From the NCBI GenBank assembly GCA_016936355.1, contig JAFGYB010000018.1:1-64000 (forward strand): DNA of 64,000 nt, given 5' to 3'. This DNA comes from Bacteroidales bacterium (GTDB taxonomy: Bacteria > Bacteroidota > Bacteroidia > Bacteroidales > F082). The position numbers were made by a program, and so were the translations under genes. Below, piece by piece: positions 320 to 19,513 of this stretch (positions within the stretch are counted from its first letter, which is position 1; each line of letters begins with the position of its first letter). The notes beneath the pieces are model-generated. The model ran no database searches and was not told the DNA's origin. It saw nothing but the letters and a program-made list of their open reading frames with translations.

Positions 320-898
320 ATGAAGAACGAAGCAATTAAAGTACTAGCCTTTGAAACGCCTCAGCAATGGCGTTCCTGGCTTGAACAGCATCATGAAACG
401 GTTCCGCAGGGCATTCAAATGCGGATATACAAAAAGGATTCCGGTTTCCCGACGGTTACCTATGATGAAGCGTTGGACGAAGCCCTCTGCTTTGGCTGGA
501 TTGACGGGCAAAAAAACAAGTACGACGAAATTTCGTGGTTGCAGAAGTTTACCCCCCGGCGAAAGCGCAGCATGTGGTCGAAACGCAACAAGGAACACGT
601 AGCCCGCCTGATCAGAGAAAAGAAAATGCAGCCGGCGGGACTGAAAGAAGTGGAAGAGGCCCAGCAAGACGGCCGCTGGGAGAAAGCCTACGACAACGCC
701 CGGGAGATGGAGATCCCGGAGGATTTCCTGGCTGAACTGAAAAAAGAACCTGAGGCCTGGGCTTTTTTCCGGACGCTGAACCGAACGAATACCTATGCCA
801 TCGCCTGGCGGCTCCAGACGGCCAAACGCCCCGAAACCCGCCAACGCCGGATGGAACAATTGCTCGGGATGATGAAAAACAAACAGAAGCTGCACTGA
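320..898 (+). CDS. YdeI/OmdA family protein
   Basis: The 192-residue product belongs to the YdeI/OmpD-associated (OmdA) family, some members of which are annotated as bacteriocin-protection proteins; the biochemical role is unknown. The diagnostic family block is present: CFGWIDG at residues 57-63 and a basic stretch TPRRKRSMWSKRN at 78-90, followed by a helical, charged C-terminal half. There is no signal peptide or membrane segment, so it should be cytoplasmic. Length is normal for the family. The ATG at 320 is the only reasonable start. It is monocistronic, with about 150 bases before the next gene on the same strand. The family call is secure; a link to the nearby peptide locus would be speculation. 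Confidence 0.85.
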   Translation: MKNEAIKVLAFETPQQWRSWLEQHHETVPQGIQMRIYKKDSGFPTVTYDEALDEALCFGWIDGQKNKYDEISWLQKFTPRRKRSMWSKRNKEHVARLIREKKMQPAGLKEVEEAQQDGRWEKAYDNAREMEIPEDFLAELKKEPEAWAFFRTLNRTNTYAIAWRLQTAKRPETRQRRMEQLLGMMKNKQKLH

Positions 899-947
899 AG
901 TTTCTTGTGAAGGATTCTGCTCTAATACAAGGAGATTCCAGCCTGCG

Positions 948-956
948 GCGGGCAGG
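948..956 (+). repeat. GCGGGCAGG motif copy
   Basis: GCGGGCAGG occurs at 80-88, 948-956 and 3169-3177, each time between genes. At 942-956 it forms part of a short hairpin (CCTGC pairing with GCAGG). At 3151-3186 it is the centre of a perfect palindrome. It is probably the core of a small dispersed palindromic unit. Confidence 0.35.
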
Positions 957-1050
957 TCTCTTTATTCCTTCGACCTTTATCGAAACAACAACGAACGATT
1001 CACTAAAGATTGCCTACTTTTGAAGCACAAGAATCAAAGCAACGTTAAAG

Positions 1051-1728
1051 ATGAGGCAGTCATTTAAATTATATTTTTCCCTGTTGATGTTGGTGCTGAC
1101 GGTGTTTGTGGGATGCACTACAAAACCGAAGCCTGTCGGCCGGATTCAGCAGGGCGATATCCTGTTCCAGAACCTGCAGTGTGGTCCGTTGTGTGATGCC
1201 ATTGAAGCGGTAACCCAGGGGGTGGACGGAAAGAGTTTTTCGCATTGCGCGCTGGTGGTCAGCGTCAACGATACGCTGAAAGTGGTGGAAGCCATCGGCA
1301 GCAAGGTACAGGTCCACAGCCTGAACACCTTTTTCGCCCGCAGCGGCGATACCGGTGTGATCCGAAACATTACCGTGGAGCGACTGAAGAAGTCCTACCG
1401 TTCGCTGATTCCCGCGGCGCAGGCTTTTGCCCTGCAGCAGGTGGGGCAGCCCTACGACGATGATTTTATCCTGAACAACGGCAAATGGTACTGCAGCGAA
1501 CTTATTTATGCGGCCTTCAAATACGCGGATCAGGGAAAAGAGTTCTTTCCCCTGGCGCCCATGACGTTTAAAGATCCGAAAACCCATCAATTTTTCCCTG
1601 CCTGGGTGGAATACTACCACCAGCTGGGGGAACCCATTCCGGAAGGAAAACCCGGTACCAATCCGGGACTGATTTCCCGTTCGCCCCGGCTTACCGTGGT
1701 GCCGCTGCGCCACCTCAACCTCCGGTGA
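1051..1728 (+). CDS. YiiX/YebB-like NlpC/P60-fold lipoprotein
   Basis: A 225-residue predicted lipoprotein: a hydrophobic N-terminus ends in VFVGC, so Cys22 would be lipidated. The mature part is a permuted papain-like (NlpC/P60 superfamily, YiiX type) domain. The likely catalytic His is H65 in FSHCALV and the likely catalytic Cys is C148 in WYCSELIY, the usual order for the permuted group. Such proteins are putative amidases or peptidases acting on peptidoglycan, peptides or lipids in the periplasm. The gene converges on the radical SAM gene, with only six bases between the two stop codons and no terminator in the gap. Substrate unknown; maturation of the nearby peptide is conceivable but unsupported. 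Confidence 0.8.
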   Translation: MRQSFKLYFSLLMLVLTVFVGCTTKPKPVGRIQQGDILFQNLQCGPLCDAIEAVTQGVDGKSFSHCALVVSVNDTLKVVEAIGSKVQVHSLNTFFARSGDTGVIRNITVERLKKSYRSLIPAAQAFALQQVGQPYDDDFILNNGKWYCSELIYAAFKYADQGKEFFPLAPMTFKDPKTHQFFPAWVEYYHQLGEPIPEGKPGTNPGLISRSPRLTVVPLRHLNLR

Positions 1729-1734
1729 TGTTGT

Positions 1735-3126
1735 TTACCGAACCTTTTCCGGACTTCGGTACCGTAAGAAATCGGTTTTGATCTGCTCATACCAGCGGGC
1801 ACTTTCTTCCTGTTGCAGCCAGCGGCAATTTTCCTCCCCGATCCACTGGGCGGCGATAGCGCCCCGGAGACTGCAATGCTGACAAAAGGCAGCCCACGGA
1901 CACGACTGACAAATTCCGGGTTCGGGAGGGCTGAGGCGGGAAAAGGAACGCGCCAGCCCGCTGCCGAAGACTTCTTTTTCATCCTGATTGTACAGGGAAC
2001 CAAAAATTCCCTGGTCTTCATCAAAAGTGACGCAGGGTCGGACGTTTCCGTCCGGATCCATTGCATACACACGCCATCCGGCACCACAGCCTCCGGGCTG
2101 ACTGACTTTCGTCAGGGTGCCTTCGCTGAAAAGGTGCAGAAAATCACTGTATTGTTCCTGAAGTTTCTGTTCGGTTTCCAGTACCTCCCGGGCATTGTGA
2201 TTCCACCGTTTGAATGCAGTACCGGCCCTGCCAAAGGGCAGGATGGGACTGTAGGTGAACAGGTCGGCTCCCAGCTCGCGCGCCAGCAGCAAGGTAGGCT
2301 CCAGATGACTCCAGTTGCTTTCGTCTACCGACATGCTCACGCGGGTCAGAAAGCCTTCCTTTTTGAGCAGCCGGATGCCTTCCGTCGTTCGCTCAAAAGC
2401 ATTTTTCCCTCCTCTGCGCCGGTTGTGCTCGGAAGCAATGTGGCTGTCGAGACTGATGCTGAAAATCAGCTTTTCCCGGTAGGGTTTTAGTTTTTCAAGG
2501 CGCTGGCTTGTGAGGAGGGTTCCGTTGGTCAGGATGCCCACCAGGGCCAGCTGTTCGCAACAAAAAGCGGCAATTTCATCAAAGTCGGGGTGCATCATGG
2601 GTTCCCCTCCGGTCAGTTCCACCGACTGCAGTCCGTTTTGTGCCAGCGAACTCAGTGTGCTGAGTAGTTGTTGTGTGTCGGTCGTGAGGTGGTCTGCACC
2701 GGGACCGGCATTTCTATAGCAATAACTGCAGTTCAGGTTGCATTTGGTGGTTAACTCCACCTGCAGGCTGGTGGGATAGAACAGGTCAAAGCTGCCGGTG
2801 GTGTTCGGGGTTACTTTCGTTGCCGTTTCGTTCAGTGTGATGAGCTCATCGCGAATGTACCAGGCCAGATGCACCAGGGTTTCCATCCGGTCTGTGTCGG
2901 TTTCGCCGGAATGCTCCCCGCGGATGTATTCCTCCAGGATCTGGCCAAAGGTCCTCGTCCCGTCGCAGCGACTCAGAATCCGGGCTATTCCGGAGGGTAC
3001 GTGCGAAGGAACAACCCGGCTGTCGGAGGATAAAAACCCCAGGGTGGGGGCGCAATGCAGCTTCACCGATGGGTCCAGCACCGGGTACAGGTTTCGGGGT
3101 AATGCGTTGAGGGTATTGTTTGACAT
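1735..3126 (-). CDS. radical SAM/SPASM peptide-modifying enzyme with PqqD-like N-terminal domain
   Basis: The 463-residue enzyme has three parts. Residues about 18-100 look like a PqqD-type precursor-recognition (RRE) domain. Residues about 118-330 are a radical SAM core with the cluster motif CNLNCSYC (C129, C133, C136) and GGEP at 173-176. The C-terminus is a SPASM domain with C347, C365, C406, C409, C415, C418 and C434, which would hold two auxiliary [4Fe-4S] clusters. This is the architecture of sactisynthases (AlbA, ThnB, SkfB) and related enzymes that install thioether or C-C crosslinks in ribosomal peptides. The gene directly upstream on the same strand encodes a cysteine-rich precursor-like peptide, which is the obvious substrate. 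Crosslink chemistry cannot be read from the sequence; a QhpD- or PqqE-like reaction is the alternative. Confidence 0.88.
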   Translation of the reverse strand: MSNNTLNALPRNLYPVLDPSVKLHCAPTLGFLSSDSRVVPSHVPSGIARILSRCDGTRTFGQILEEYIRGEHSGETDTDRMETLVHLAWYIRDELITLNETATKVTPNTTGSFDLFYPTSLQVELTTKCNLNCSYCYRNAGPGADHLTTDTQQLLSTLSSLAQNGLQSVELTGGEPMMHPDFDEIAAFCCEQLALVGILTNGTLLTSQRLEKLKPYREKLIFSISLDSHIASEHNRRRGGKNAFERTTEGIRLLKKEGFLTRVSMSVDESNWSHLEPTLLLARELGADLFTYSPILPFGRAGTAFKRWNHNAREVLETEQKLQEQYSDFLHLFSEGTLTKVSQPGGCGAGWRVYAMDPDGNVRPCVTFDEDQGIFGSLYNQDEKEVFGSGLARSFSRLSPPEPGICQSCPWAAFCQHCSLRGAIAAQWIGEENCRWLQQEESARWYEQIKTDFLRYRSPEKVR

Positions 3127-3150
3127 GCAGGAATGTTTTTAATGAGTAAA

Positions 3151-3186
3151 ATTTCTATTCCTGCCCCTGCGGGCAGGAATAGAAAT
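3151..3186 (-). terminator. intercistronic hairpin, probable attenuator
   Basis: A perfect 16-bp inverted repeat (3151-3166 with 3171-3186, 4-base loop) lies between the precursor stop codon and the radical SAM start. On the transcribed strand it is followed by only a short T run (TTTAC), so it is more likely a partial terminator or a 3'-end-protecting stem than a full stop. Such hairpins commonly let a RiPP precursor be made in excess of its modifying enzyme. Confidence 0.65.
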
Positions 3187-3194
3187 ACAGGAAG

Positions 3195-3506
3195 CTAATC
3201 CAGTAAGTGGACGGCTGACGCGGAGTGGGCACCGGCAGAAGCAGCATTCAGTTCCCCGCAGGCAGCACACAAACCACAGACACCGCACCACGAACAATTG
3301 TGCGGGATACGGTGCACTTCACCCATGTTGGTTTCCAGCATGGGCATGATTTTTTCCGCGACAGCGGGAGGCAGTTCGGGCGAGAGTCCGTTTTTTTCCA
3401 TGACCGACAAAAGGTTTTCGGAAGCCCCGCGTTTTGTCAGGGCCGCATTGACCACATCGTCAAAGAATTTCTTGAACTCTTCATCGGAAAGCATTCTTTT
3501 TTTCAT
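3195..3506 (-). CDS. cysteine-rich RiPP precursor peptide, sactipeptide-like
   Basis: A 103-residue peptide. Residues 1-60 form a charged, helical, leader-like segment without a secretion signal. Residues 71-83 hold five cysteines at strict three-residue spacing (C71, C74, C77, C80, C83; CSWCGVCGLCAAC). The last 20 residues are rich in Ala, Ser, Gly and His. In the sactipeptide thurincin H, as I remember its sequence, a similar CxxC ladder ending in CAAC is followed by an EL/LN segment and an Ala/Thr/Ser tail whose alpha carbons accept the thioethers; here CAAC is followed by GELN and AASAGAHSASA. The radical SAM/SPASM gene follows 68 bases downstream. The spacing lacks the CxxxCP of ferredoxins. 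The precursor role is inferred; the cleavage site (perhaps around residues 60-70) is not obvious, and no exporter or immunity gene is adjacent. Confidence 0.75.
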   Translation of the reverse strand: MKKRMLSDEEFKKFFDDVVNAALTKRGASENLLSVMEKNGLSPELPPAVAEKIMPMLETNMGEVHRIPHNCSWCGVCGLCAACGELNAASAGAHSASAVHLLD

Positions 3507-3913
3507 ACACGTCCTTTCTTTTAGGTTAATAAATAGTACGGAATACCCTGTACCGGTTTTGTATTCTTTCTTTCGCTTACAAAAATCTGCGGACTCAATT
3601 CGGAAAGGGTTTTGTTTCGAACGGCATAATGATGATTGTTAATGGGTTAAAGGTAATGAATTTTTGGTTTAATGCCAAATTTCAGGTGGATTTTGAGCAG
3701 GAGATGCAGCACTTGCGACAAATAAGCGCCGGTCCCGTCCTCCCTTTACGGGGCTCGGGTTCCTCAACGGCAAAGAAAGGAATCAACGAAGGGATTTGTT
3801 ATTAACTAATTGCGAAACACCCGAACCAATCAAGTTCATTTCCAAAATTTTTCTATTTTTAATCAGGAAAAATTTCCCCTCTGAACCGGTGCCTTATCCG
3901 ATACCCGCAGGGG
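3507..3913. other. divergent intergenic region
   Basis: This 407-base region separates the RiPP operon from the Pyr4-like gene. It holds a candidate promoter for the precursor (3648-3679), leaving a leader of about 135 bases, and a weaker TATTTTTA (3854-3861) facing the rightward gene. CAAAGAAAGGAAT near 3773 repeats a sequence from the start of the window. No further gene is apparent. Confidence 0.5.
3648..3679 (-). promoter_or_regulatory. candidate promoter of the RiPP operon
   Basis: On the minus strand, TTTG (3676-3679) is followed after 20 bases by TACCTTTA (3648-3655). This fits the Bacteroidota -33 TTTG / -7 TAnnTTTG pattern with one mismatch at the last -7 base. Transcription would start near 3641. 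Confidence 0.4.
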
Positions 3914-4615
3914 GTGGATCGCTTGAATAACAAAATACTAGGATTGATGAGTTTTGCATTACTGATGGTACTGTTGAGTGGGACTTGCTGGTCCCTGGTT
4001 TATCTTGATGCCATCCGTATCGGGATCAAAGACAAAACCTATGCCATTCCCTTCTGGGCGCTGGCGTTGAATTTTGCCTGGGAGGCGCTGCTGACCCTGT
4101 TTGGCTACAGGGAACTGGGCGTACAGGCGCAGGTAGGGATGAATGCCGTATGGCTGCTTTTTGATTTCGGTATTTTGTACACGTACTTTAAATACGGCAT
4201 CAAAGAATTTCCGGCTTCCGTTTCCCCCCGTTGGTTTTACCTCTGGTCGGTGCTGGTGATCCTGGTATCGCTGGTGATTCAGTACTTTTTCATCCGTCAG
4301 TTTGGGGTCATTACCGGAGGCAGTTACACAGCCTTTCTGCAAAACCTGCTGATGTCCATTCTGTTCATCGGGATGCTGATCAAACGAAAAAGTTCCAGGG
4401 GACAAACCCTGCTGATTGCCGTAATGAAAGGAATCGGAACCCTGTTTCCCACGATCCTTTTCGGGTTTGTAGGGATCAAAGAAACCCACGGTCCCAATCA
4501 CCTGGTGCTGGTGCTGGGTATCCTGATTTTTTTCTTCGATGTGCTGTATGTTTATCTGTTGTATCGGGTCAAACAACAGGAACGGTCCTCAGAACGTCCG
4601 GAATACATTATCTGA
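3914..4615 (+). CDS. Pyr4-family-like membrane protein (putative terpene cyclase)
   Basis: The 233-residue protein is almost entirely hydrophobic, with about seven membrane helices. It resembles the small integral-membrane terpene cyclases of the fungal Pyr4/PaxB type. It has NFAWE at residues 53-57 in the second helix, a WLLFDFGILYTYF block at 80-92, and an aspartate in the last helix (D209). As I recall, one glutamate and one aspartate at equivalent places (E63 and D218 of Pyr4) act in protonation-initiated cyclisation. If the likeness is real, it may cyclise a prenylated lipid; a UbiA prenyltransferase gene lies 0.6 kb away on the other strand. The call assumes a GTG start; ATG at 3947 would remove part of helix one. 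The ancestral function in bacteria is unknown, so 'cyclase' is tentative. Confidence 0.55.
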   Translation: MDRLNNKILGLMSFALLMVLLSGTCWSLVYLDAIRIGIKDKTYAIPFWALALNFAWEALLTLFGYRELGVQAQVGMNAVWLLFDFGILYTYFKYGIKEFPASVSPRWFYLWSVLVILVSLVIQYFFIRQFGVITGGSYTAFLQNLLMSILFIGMLIKRKSSRGQTLLIAVMKGIGTLFPTILFGFVGIKETHGPNHLVLVLGILIFFFDVLYVYLLYRVKQQERSSERPEYII

Positions 4616-4636
4616 CCGGTTTCAACTTCCTGTATT

Positions 4637-5230
4637 TCAGTGGCTGATCAAGTGCTCCAGTTCTTCGTAGAGCTGGTGGGTGGGCAGTCCCATGACATTG
4701 AAATAGGACCCTTCGATGCGCTGGATGCCGATGTGGCCGATCCATTCCTGAATGCCGTAGGAACCGGCTTTATCGAACGGATGGTAGCGGGTAATGTAAT
4801 ACTGTAGTTCCGCTTCGGTCAGGGTTTTAAAATATACCTCGGTGCAGGCTCTGAAGTCGTGGATGCGGTTCCCGATTCTCAGACTTACCCCGGTGATGAC
4901 TTCGTGTTTGGTTCCGGAAAGTTTGCGCAGCATGGCGGCCGCTTCTTCGGCGTTGGCAGACTTTTCCAGCAGTTCGTTGCCGGAGGCTACAATGGTATCG
5001 GCCGTAATAATCAGCGTGTGTTCCGTGCATTTTTCTTCCGGGAAATTTGTACTCTTCAGCCGGCTGAGGTAGGTGGCGGCTTCGGCAGGAGAGAGTCCCG
5101 GGGGAACGGTTTCTTCCACCGGATATACTTCCACCCGGAATTCAATGCCCATGGCAGCCAATAGTTCTTTCCTCCGGGGGGAACCCGAAGCCAGGATTAC
5201 GTCGTATTTTTTCAATGCGTCCAGCAGCAT
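4637..5230 (-). CDS. maf: Maf-like nucleotide pyrophosphatase
   Basis: A 197-residue Maf/Ham1-superfamily protein, predicted to hydrolyse non-canonical or excess nucleoside triphosphates (dTTP/UTP type) to monophosphate and pyrophosphate in the cytoplasm. The substrate loop ASGSPRR is at residues 14-20, the catalytic aspartate is in ITADTIV, and the family signature FDKAGSYGIQ is near the C-terminus. The ATG start used here lies one base after the UbiA stop and is preceded by a strong GGAGG Shine-Dalgarno, unusual in this phylum and decisive against the upstream TTG. It is the last gene of the leftward operon and converges on the Pyr4-like gene. Confidence 0.92.
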   Translation of the reverse strand: MLLDALKKYDVILASGSPRRKELLAAMGIEFRVEVYPVEETVPPGLSPAEAATYLSRLKSTNFPEEKCTEHTLIITADTIVASGNELLEKSANAEEAAAMLRKLSGTKHEVITGVSLRIGNRIHDFRACTEVYFKTLTEAELQYYITRYHPFDKAGSYGIQEWIGHIGIQRIEGSYFNVMGLPTHQLYEELEHLISH

Positions 5231-5231
5231 A

Positions 5232-6221
5232 TCAACCTCCAAAATAAAAGAGTGCCATCGACAATACGCCCGTTAGCATCAGGAGCTTGATCCACAGCGA
5301 CAGGGATGAAAAATGGAAGGTTTCTCTGGCATTGACCAGTTTATACAGGATCAGACTGAAGAGCAGATCCACCAGGAAAAAGTAGAAAAACAAGAGCATC
5401 AGCGATTCGCTGTAAAAAATCCACTGAATGAAGAAGGAAGCCATCAGACCGGTAAGGGCAATGCCCAGGGCCAGGTTCTTCGATTTCCGGTATCCGTAAA
5501 CCACGGCAAAGGTCCGGCAACCGACTGCTTGATCGCCTTTCATGTCTTCCACGTCTTTCACGATTTCGCGCAGCCAGCTCACCAGCAGGGCAAAGCCTAT
5601 GTAGATCAGATTGAGGATAAAGACCAGGGTAAAAGCGTGGGAGGTCAGCAGTACCTGACCCATCTGACTTTGGATGGCCAGTACCTGAAAAATGAACACG
5701 AGGCCAAAGGAAAAGGCACTGGGAAAGGCCACCACCAGGTTGCCCAGGATGGGGCGGCACTGGTAGTCTTTGGCATAAAACCACATGAGTCCGGCGGTAA
5801 ACACAAACAACAGGGAAAAAACCGGGGTGTGCACCCGAAAGGAAACCCAGGTACCGGTAAGGATGCCGATAGCGGTTGTGACGGCATACAGAACCTCCGC
5901 CTGTCGCACCGTAAACACCGTGTTCACCGTATTTTTTCCGGGTTTGTTGATGCGATCGGCTTCCACATCCATCAGGTCGTTGATGATGTAGCCTCCGGCC
6001 GCCAGCAGCAGCGTGGTGACCACCAGCAACACAAACGTCAGGTCATTCATGCCGGCGGCCGACACTTCAGGTCCCAGCATATGCTGTACAATGGGTACGT
6101 ACATGAGGTACATGCTCAGGATCAGGATGAGCTGGTTGGGCCAGCGAATGAGTTGAAAAAAGGCTTTGATCACGGTGTATTGCTTTTGGTTTACCAGGTA
6201 AAGGCTTCGGGGGTCATCCAT
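5232..6221 (-). CDS. UbiA-family prenyltransferase (geranylgeranylglycerol-phosphate geranylgeranyltransferase-like)
   Basis: An integral membrane prenyltransferase with eight to nine helices and both prenyl-diphosphate-binding motifs: NDLMDVEAD at about residues 81-89 and DVEDMKGD at about 223-230. It is closest in style to the Bacteroidota proteins annotated as (S)-3-O-geranylgeranylglyceryl phosphate synthase partners, which would transfer a second prenyl chain to an archaeal-type ether lipid; the acceptor here is unproven. The coding frame overlaps the phosphatase gene upstream. The ATG at 6221 gives a 31-base overlap; a GTG about 50 bases further in is the alternative. It lies in the conserved order DUF2520, KdsC-like, UbiA, Maf. 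Confidence 0.85.
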   Translation of the reverse strand: MDDPRSLYLVNQKQYTVIKAFFQLIRWPNQLILILSMYLMYVPIVQHMLGPEVSAAGMNDLTFVLLVVTTLLLAAGGYIINDLMDVEADRINKPGKNTVNTVFTVRQAEVLYAVTTAIGILTGTWVSFRVHTPVFSLLFVFTAGLMWFYAKDYQCRPILGNLVVAFPSAFSFGLVFIFQVLAIQSQMGQVLLTSHAFTLVFILNLIYIGFALLVSWLREIVKDVEDMKGDQAVGCRTFAVVYGYRKSKNLALGIALTGLMASFFIQWIFYSESLMLLFFYFFLVDLLFSLILYKLVNARETFHFSSLSLWIKLLMLTGVLSMALFYFGG

Positions 6222-6712
6222 TTGTTCTGCACTTTCAGCACCTGTTCGATGATGTCGCGCACACACCCATCTCCTCCTTTTTTGTCGGAGATATACACCG
6301 ACACGGCTTTAACTTCTTCCGAGGCATCCATGGGGCATACGGGCACGCCCACCTTTTTCATTACGGGGATGTCGGGGATATCGTCGCCCATATAGAGCAC
6401 CTGCCGGCTTTCAAGTCCTTTGTCGCGGAGGTACTTTTCGTACACTTCGCTTTTGTTTTTCACCCCGATGAACGCATCTTTGATGTTGAGCTGTTCGAAC
6501 CGGTTTTCCATGGACCGGGAAAATCCGCCGGAAATGATGGCCACATGATAGCCCAGTTTCACGGCCAGCTGCAACACATAGCCGTCCCGCACATTGGCGG
6601 TACGCAGCGGAGCCCCGTCGTGTTGCAGAATTACTTTGCCGTCGGTCATGACCCCGTCGTAATCGAAGATGAAGGTATTCACCTCCGTTAAAAGTGCTTT
6701 GTAGTTACTCAT
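6191..6712 (-). CDS. KdsC-like HAD phosphatase
   Basis: A 173-residue cap-less HAD phosphatase of the KdsC (3-deoxy-D-manno-octulosonate 8-phosphate phosphatase) type, which works as a tetramer in LPS inner-core sugar synthesis. Motif I is DYDGVMTDG at residues 17-25, with nucleophile D17 and acid D19; motif II is IISGG; the metal-binding motif IV is YMGDDIPD. Length fits KdsC. The start overlaps the DUF2520 stop by eight bases, indicating coupled translation. Substrate specificity within the family (KDO-8-P or another sugar phosphate) is inferred. Confidence 0.88.
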   Translation of the reverse strand: MSNYKALLTEVNTFIFDYDGVMTDGKVILQHDGAPLRTANVRDGYVLQLAVKLGYHVAIISGGFSRSMENRFEQLNIKDAFIGVKNKSEVYEKYLRDKGLESRQVLYMGDDIPDIPVMKKVGVPVCPMDASEEVKAVSVYISDKKGGDGCVRDIIEQVLKVQNKWMTPEAFTW

Positions 6713-19436: not shown

Positions 19437-19513
19437 GGTCGGTTCGTCTAGTCAGGTCAGGACGCCAGGTTTTCATCCTGGTAACACGGGTTCGAATCCC
19501 GTACCGACTACCA
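19437..19513 (+). tRNA. tRNA-Glu (UUC anticodon)
   Basis: The cloverleaf can be drawn by hand. The acceptor GGTCGGT pairs with ACCGACT, the anticodon stem CCAGG/CCTGG encloses TTTTCAT with anticodon TTC, and the T arm is ACGGG-TTCGAAT-CCCGT. The CCA end is encoded. It is a single tRNA unit with its own promoter and a strong terminator directly behind it. Confidence 0.95.

Follow-up and report, generated by a model that had tools for sequence, protein, structure and literature searches.

A putative sactipeptide precursor with a five-cysteine ladder beside an AlbA-like radical SAM gene in a Bacteroidales genome

The window, a stretch of 64,000 nucleotides at one end of contig JAFGYB010000018.1 from a Bacteroidales bacterium, carries on its minus strand a small gene for a peptide of 103 amino acids (3195-3506) followed by a gene for a radical SAM/SPASM enzyme. 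A preliminary description, made from the letters alone, had reported such a peptide with five cysteines in exact CxxC steps and a tail of small residues. The reading frame was recovered at exactly these positions, and its strand was found to be minus; the cysteines are residues 71, 74, 77, 80 and 83, followed by GELNAASAGAHSASAVHLLD. The frame begins with ATG, and a purine-rich stretch, GAAAGGACG, was read directly in the letters immediately 5' of it. The predicted leader, residues 1-70 (3297-3506, minus strand), is free of cysteine, and the remainder of the peptide is CSWCGVCGLCAACGELNAASAGAHSASAVHLLD. This part consists of the five-Cys ladder at residues 71-83 (3258-3296, minus strand) and of the small-residue tail at residues 84-103 (3198-3257, minus strand), which is proposed to serve as an acceptor strand. 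The donor cysteines are grouped, at regular spacing, in the N-terminal half of the core, as is characteristic of nested hairpins of the thurincin H type. A DNA pattern for the ladder was matched once in the 64 kb, at 3258-3296, and in none of 100 dinucleotide shuffles.

The maturase gene (1735-3126, minus strand) lies with the precursor 68 nt upstream of it and encodes an AlbA-like protein of 463 amino acids. Its radical SAM motif CxxxCxxC occupies residues 129-136, and the SPASM cysteines are residues 347, 365, 406, 409, 415, 418 and 434. Pfam assigned a Radical_SAM domain (7e-23) and a SPASM domain (2e-7), so that the SPASM radical SAM gene reported earlier next to the peptide is real; a radical SAM enzyme with an auxiliary Fe-S domain beside the precursor is what a sactipeptide locus is expected to contain. 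The top NCBIfam model was AlbA, the subtilosin sactisynthase (E 3.9e-57, 194 bits, colinear over residues 52-441), although this score is far below the AlbA equivalog cut-off of 850 bits. Such enzymes stitch peptides into rigid, often antibacterial, thioether-bridged hairpins. AlbA led the second-best model by 91 bits, the next models being the Rv1681 family (103 bits), heme b synthase (94 bits) and SkfB (93 bits); the sactisynthase StsB, at 80 bits, was about level with several non-sactipeptide models. SkfB was the best relative by sequence among 17 distinct PDB sequences matched. It also came first when a structure model was submitted to Foldseek, with SuiB second and CteB further down; the model was built from 32 sequences with a mean pLDDT of 70.7, confident in the barrel, with low confidence ahead of residue 44 and over some of the C-terminal region. 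Judged by sequence and by the model, the window enzyme thus appears to resemble the known Cα sactisynthases above other maturases, with its scores under the equivalog cut-offs and StsB not distinct, and the Cys-ladder sactipeptide reading of the preliminary description gains support from AlbA as best model and SkfB as best solved relative. The authors of the SkfB study regard fold or function within this subfamily as difficult to infer from similarity networks (PMC6231123). The published SPASM spacing is CX2CX5CX3C (PMC6231123); that of the window enzyme, CX2CX5CX2C, is one residue shorter.

Between the two genes, and absent from the preliminary description, lies a perfect hairpin with a 16-bp stem and a 4-nt loop (3151-3186, minus strand; z -5.7 against 200 shuffles, none of which folded as well), which is proposed to act as a partial terminator or a processing site. 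An mRNA hairpin was predicted between the genes in all five AlbA/SkfB-like loci considered here and was significant in four, with z values against shuffles of -5.7 in the window, -4.5 in L009, -4.9 in L093, -4.6 in L112 (whose gap is longer and was folded over its first 142 nt) and -1.0 in L008, where 31 of 200 shuffles folded as well. An ungapped inverted-repeat scan recovered the window hairpin and none in the same gap of L008 or L009.

Four further loci hold such an enzyme together with a Cys-containing peptide. In L008 (genome G252) a homologous precursor ORF was found 107 nt upstream of the enzyme, with full-length alignment at 33% identity, and all five cysteines are kept together with CGE.N, including the invariant G84, E85 and N87 of the window tail. 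The leaders alone gave a score of 85, reached by none of 2000 shuffles; beyond the cysteines the similarity of the cores is weak, since 110 of 2000 shuffles with the cysteines held fixed reached the score. The NCBIfam model AlbA was first for the L008 enzyme (141 bits). A gene of the Peptidase_C14 (caspase) family lies directly downstream of the L008 maturase (3037-3864, plus strand of that locus) and was matched as a caspase by defence models, which gave no match for the two window genes queried; no counterpart of it was seen among the window neighbours scanned. A transposase-like ORF was also noted upstream in L008, at 149-550. In L009 (genome G367), an ORF of 79 amino acids with CxxCxxCxxC lies 103 nt upstream of an enzyme best matched by AlbA (155 bits; SkfB 114); the ORF shows marginal resemblance to the window peptide, an equal score being reached by 20 of 2000 shuffles. 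In L093 (genome G997), the enzyme, for which SkfB was the top NCBIfam model and AlbA ninth, is preceded at 45 nt by a short peptide containing a single CxxC and one distal Cys, and is followed by an ABC transporter. A search of plasmids with the enzyme matched 53 records, of which H1, H2 and H38 were examined and a precursor was sought in H1. The top match, L112, is the Anaerococcus prevotii plasmid pAPRE01, in which an ORF of 41 amino acids, MKPEIVAMGNGCKLCAGCTGCMFCGPSPAAGVGVAGFVGFF (4333-4458, plus strand, annotated as a hypothetical protein), carries the same five-step ladder as the window upstream of an enzyme with AlbA as its best model. Beyond the cysteines its core has no similarity to that of the window (1111 of 2000 shuffles reached the score, with the cysteines held fixed).

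The preliminary description had counted an enzyme conserved without the peptide, or freely varying cysteines, as arguments against its own reading. On both points the outcome, within these few loci, favoured that reading. A Cys-motif ORF was found directly upstream of the enzyme in five of five, and a CxxC ladder of at least four Cys in four of them. Conservation of the cysteines holds in the nearest relative, L008, which keeps all five, and in the identical ladder of L112; further out it does not, as L009 has four Cys and L093 another spacing. As a control, 80 SPASM loci among the matches listed in the enzyme-alignment search, several with short upstream flanks, were scanned for nearby same-strand ORFs with a CxxC ladder of four Cys; two had one, in one case inside the enzyme gene and in the other downstream, which leaves none of the 80 with an upstream ladder. 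Cys-rich peptides of other kinds are common next to SPASM genes, and five of these 80 listed control loci have the SCIFF motif.

The seven SPASM cysteines are invariant across the window, L008 and L009 enzymes. As to the PqqD-like domain, which the preliminary description had ascribed to the window enzyme, no Pfam match was obtained there or in the L008 enzyme; it was matched above the cut-off in L093 (6.4e-6) and just under it in L009 (3.5e-4). Because of these two matches an RRE is likely in the window enzyme as well, where the putative region has low pLDDT.

The enzyme has a very sporadic distribution. In genome samples that overlap, it was found in one of 100 relatives, the source genome itself (E 1e-60); in three of 395 genomes sampled from the phylum, namely the source genome, G252 and G367 (1e-35); in two of 86 genomes of the family of G252, again G252 and G367 (1e-45); in one of 393 genomes of the order (1e-40) and, with a three-row profile, one of 395 genomes of the class (1e-40), each time the source genome; and in one of 299 genomes of the phylum of Streptococcus ferus, G997 (1e-35). 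The FMO bacteriochlorophyll protein was found in two of 13 genomes queried, G252 (E 3e-222) and G367 (2e-226), which are therefore green sulfur bacteria. GTDB places green sulfur bacteria in Bacteroidota, and the host of L008 belongs to a class other than that of the window genome. In a tree of 35 rows, which holds neither L112 nor a characterised sactisynthase (no AlbA or ThnB sequence), the window, L008 and L009 enzymes group together as a clade supported at 100/98, L093 is attached to it at only 83/24, and the SCIFF maturases L067 and L087 stand far away. The precursor alone as query yielded no further members in the genome contigs and no match in the plasmids, and neither the precursor alignment nor the core pattern matched in the viral contigs.

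The window starts at the contig end, 1.7 kb past the enzyme, and genes may therefore be missing on that side. Among five neighbours scanned with Pfam and NCBIfam (320-6266), no exporter, peptide-dedicated protease or immunity gene was recognised. An OmdA/YdeI family protein, whose Pfam name is 'bacteriocin-protection', is encoded about 840 nt past the end of the maturase gene (320-898, plus strand). Divergent from the precursor lies a gene for a membrane protein of the Pyr4-like transmembrane terpene-cyclase family (3914-4615, plus strand; PF25129, 4e-23); it was not found in 11 congeners (E 1e-20) and could have arrived together with the pair. Neither the precursor (E 0.01) nor the enzyme (E 1e-60) was found in the 11 other congeners. 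Maf was found in each of the 12 genomes of the genus, and the Maf region was read in five of the 11 others. That of G007, which has the most similar Maf, contains UbiA (by appearance), Maf, a LtrA-family gene and YiiX before the contig ends. In the window, the maturase gene converges with a papain-like YiiX/C92 gene (1051-1728), the two being separated by 6 nt, and the latter had been considered as a dedicated leader protease. The G007 copy is 84% identical and sits near Maf without the pair; this candidate was therefore rejected, YiiX looks resident, and the pair seems to sit among resident genes. The orientation of YiiX relative to Maf is reversed between G007 and the window, so that the change was more than a simple insertion. 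Base composition was uninformative about recent transfer: the GC content of the pair, at 0.546, exceeds the 0.456 of the window, yet YiiX (0.546) and Maf (0.533) are equally GC-rich. From what lies between UbiA and Maf in congener G008, the Maf neighbourhood might serve this genus as a general site of insertion.

Among the known systems, subtilosin A of Bacillus subtilis, which has a short leader and a larger alb operon, is the product of the family that gave the best model of the window enzyme. The radical SAM cysteines 129, 133 and 136 of the window enzyme have the same positions in AlbA (PMC8172795); subtilosin A differs in its three thioethers and head-to-tail cyclisation (PMC8326336). Closer in the layout of its core is thurincin H of Bacillus thuringiensis, in which Cys recurs every third residue (C4, C7, C10, C13) and the acceptors follow in mirrored threes, giving the bridges C4-S28, C7-T25, C10-T22 and C13-N19 (PMC8172795). 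According to the same source, its enzyme ThnB, here likened by description, is a radical SAM enzyme with an N-terminal RRE, a region that is likely in the window enzyme from its relatives. Thurincin H has four Cys and four bridges, whereas the window has five Cys; its precursor of 40 amino acids yields a peptide of 31 residues, so that its leader is short in comparison with the approximately 70 residues of the window; and its cluster holds three precursor copies, a protease, an ABC transporter and a regulator (PMC8172795). The pAPRE01 cluster (APRE_RS09345) shares with the window the five-Cys CxxC ladder, the Gly and small-residue tail after it, the AlbA-like enzyme downstream and the predicted hairpin between the genes. 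It differs in a leader of about 11 residues on its 41-amino-acid precursor and in the ABC transporter, two-component and VanZ-family genes nearby, and is perhaps the more tractable relative for experiments. A putative thuricin-CD-like cluster on this plasmid has been published as Apre_1837 (PMC3132745), which in our reading of plasmid and neighbours is the same gene; the survey lists for the Anaerococcus cluster a candidate peptide of 65 amino acids with several Cys.

Taken together, the locus probably represents a minimal two-gene operon for a sactipeptide-like S-Cα product, and that the product is a thioether RiPP of some kind is more probable still. By analogy, the best reading is a thurincin-H-like peptide with up to five nested S-Cα bridges. 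The AlbA-type enzyme would bind the leader of about 70 residues through its RRE-like N-terminal region, cleave SAM and take the Cα hydrogen from residues of the small-residue C-terminal strand, each activated acceptor then being joined to a Cys of the ladder. Successive cysteines would pair with acceptors three apart in the opposite direction and produce a nested hairpin of up to five rungs, a pairing for which the window tail is of sufficient length. Seven loop lengths were tabulated for the window core, and a weak preference is given to the register that starts at N87, a candidate innermost acceptor because it is invariant with L008; the candidate bridges would be C83-N87 innermost, followed by C80-S90, C77-A93, C74-A96 and C71-V99. 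The mRNA hairpin might keep the level of the precursor above that of the enzyme, and leader removal and export would depend on proteins whose genes lie elsewhere. As a default guess from analogy, the product would have narrow-spectrum antibacterial activity.

Of the other explanations, the one that survives best, although unlikely, is that the enzyme makes a ranthipeptide, with S-Cβ or S-Cγ links, or another ladder crosslink, and that the product is a thioether RiPP and not a sactipeptide. The bridged carbon is not fixed by sequence alone, and SCIFF, first called a sactipeptide, was later shown to be Cγ-linked (PMC8326336). The SCIFF ranthipeptides (CteA, Tte1186) likewise have a Cys-rich precursor beside a SPASM enzyme, but their Cys spacing is different and their enzymes fall in a distant clade. 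The acceptors of PapA, described as having six Cys and six Asp (PMC8172795), are absent from the window tail, in which the one Asp is the last residue. On the L008 enzyme the ranthipeptide model PapB (76 bits) does exceed StsB (64 bits), but on the window enzyme PapB reaches 69 bits against 194 for AlbA. Furthermore, comparison of the window enzyme with the SCIFF maturase L067 gives 58 bits, and TIGR03974, which gives this control maturase 751 bits, is absent from the best 25 of 105 families matched by the window enzyme. It is very unlikely that the ladder instead binds a metal or an Fe-S cluster while the radical SAM enzyme has another job: CxxCxxC motifs are common in ferredoxins, and the L009 peptide, whose ladder ends in CP, gives a weak match (E 0.029, 12.9 bits) to a model for NAD(P)-binding proteins, but each of the four ladders found immediately precedes an AlbA-like enzyme, the peptides are small and combine a leader free of Cys with a tail at the C terminus, and the window peptide matched nothing in Pfam or NCBIfam at E up to 1. 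Least likely of all is a decaying or non-functional locus in the source host, to which the very sporadic pair, unseen in 11 congeners at the thresholds used, and the unrecognised accessory genes might point, but both frames are intact, the radical SAM and SPASM motif cysteines are conserved, and precursor and enzyme are conserved with L008 in another class.

The picture of sactipeptides as Gram-positive products, given in the preliminary description, holds for the characterised examples, which in the portion of the literature consulted have Gram-positive hosts and no more than four S-Cα bridges; it does not extend to predicted clusters, some of which were already listed for Bacteroides sp. 3_1_19 and Desulfobacca. 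Of the 15 sactibiotic-like clusters in a 2011 survey, Firmicutes account for 13, and the other two are from Bacteroides sp. 3_1_19 and Petrotoga (PMC3132745). A 2014 survey of anaerobes, in its accessible part, reports a single cluster for Desulfobacca, another for Thermosipho, and none in the 14 strains of Bacteroidetes or the one of Chlorobi (PMC4289311). The accessible part of a Bacteroidales survey describes many radical SAM areas and no sactipeptide of the window type (PMC10352776), and that of a camel rumen study places sactipeptide clusters in Firmicutes only (PMC9177762). In a literature search that largely excluded subscription journals, no report tied a sactipeptide to Chlorobium, and no five-thioether sactipeptide was apparent from titles. 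The locus is therefore regarded as a variation on a known kind, marked by its long conserved leader, its five-step ladder, its two-gene unit and its hosts in Bacteroidota and green sulfur bacteria.

The five-Cys peptide occurs in a Gram-negative group for which peptides of the sactipeptide kind were rarely predicted before. A bolder proposal, advanced tentatively and with somewhat less than even expectation, is that this would be the first five-rung nested sactipeptide from a self-contained, mobile two-gene unit of Gram-negative anaerobes, including green sulfur bacteria, with cleavage and export by the machinery of the host. If true, such a ladder of five rungs, built by a single enzyme on a highly regular substrate, would lend itself to clean tests of the order of the bridges, the determinant of the register and the number of rungs per enzyme, and it would point to peptide-mediated interaction among Bacteroidota and green sulfur bacteria.

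Several minor observations were made. A weak match to the precursor was obtained in L003 of G061, a member of another family of the order (1501-1662; E 0.005, 37% over residues 22-73, two internal stops), and a second weak match occurs in the source genome (E 0.135, one internal stop). The UbiA-Maf stretch of G008 (L108, 3532-6521) contains DNA methyltransferase-like genes and an HTH regulator, named by appearance. At its gathering thresholds Rfam matched the window once, with a tRNA at 19437-19510 on the plus strand.
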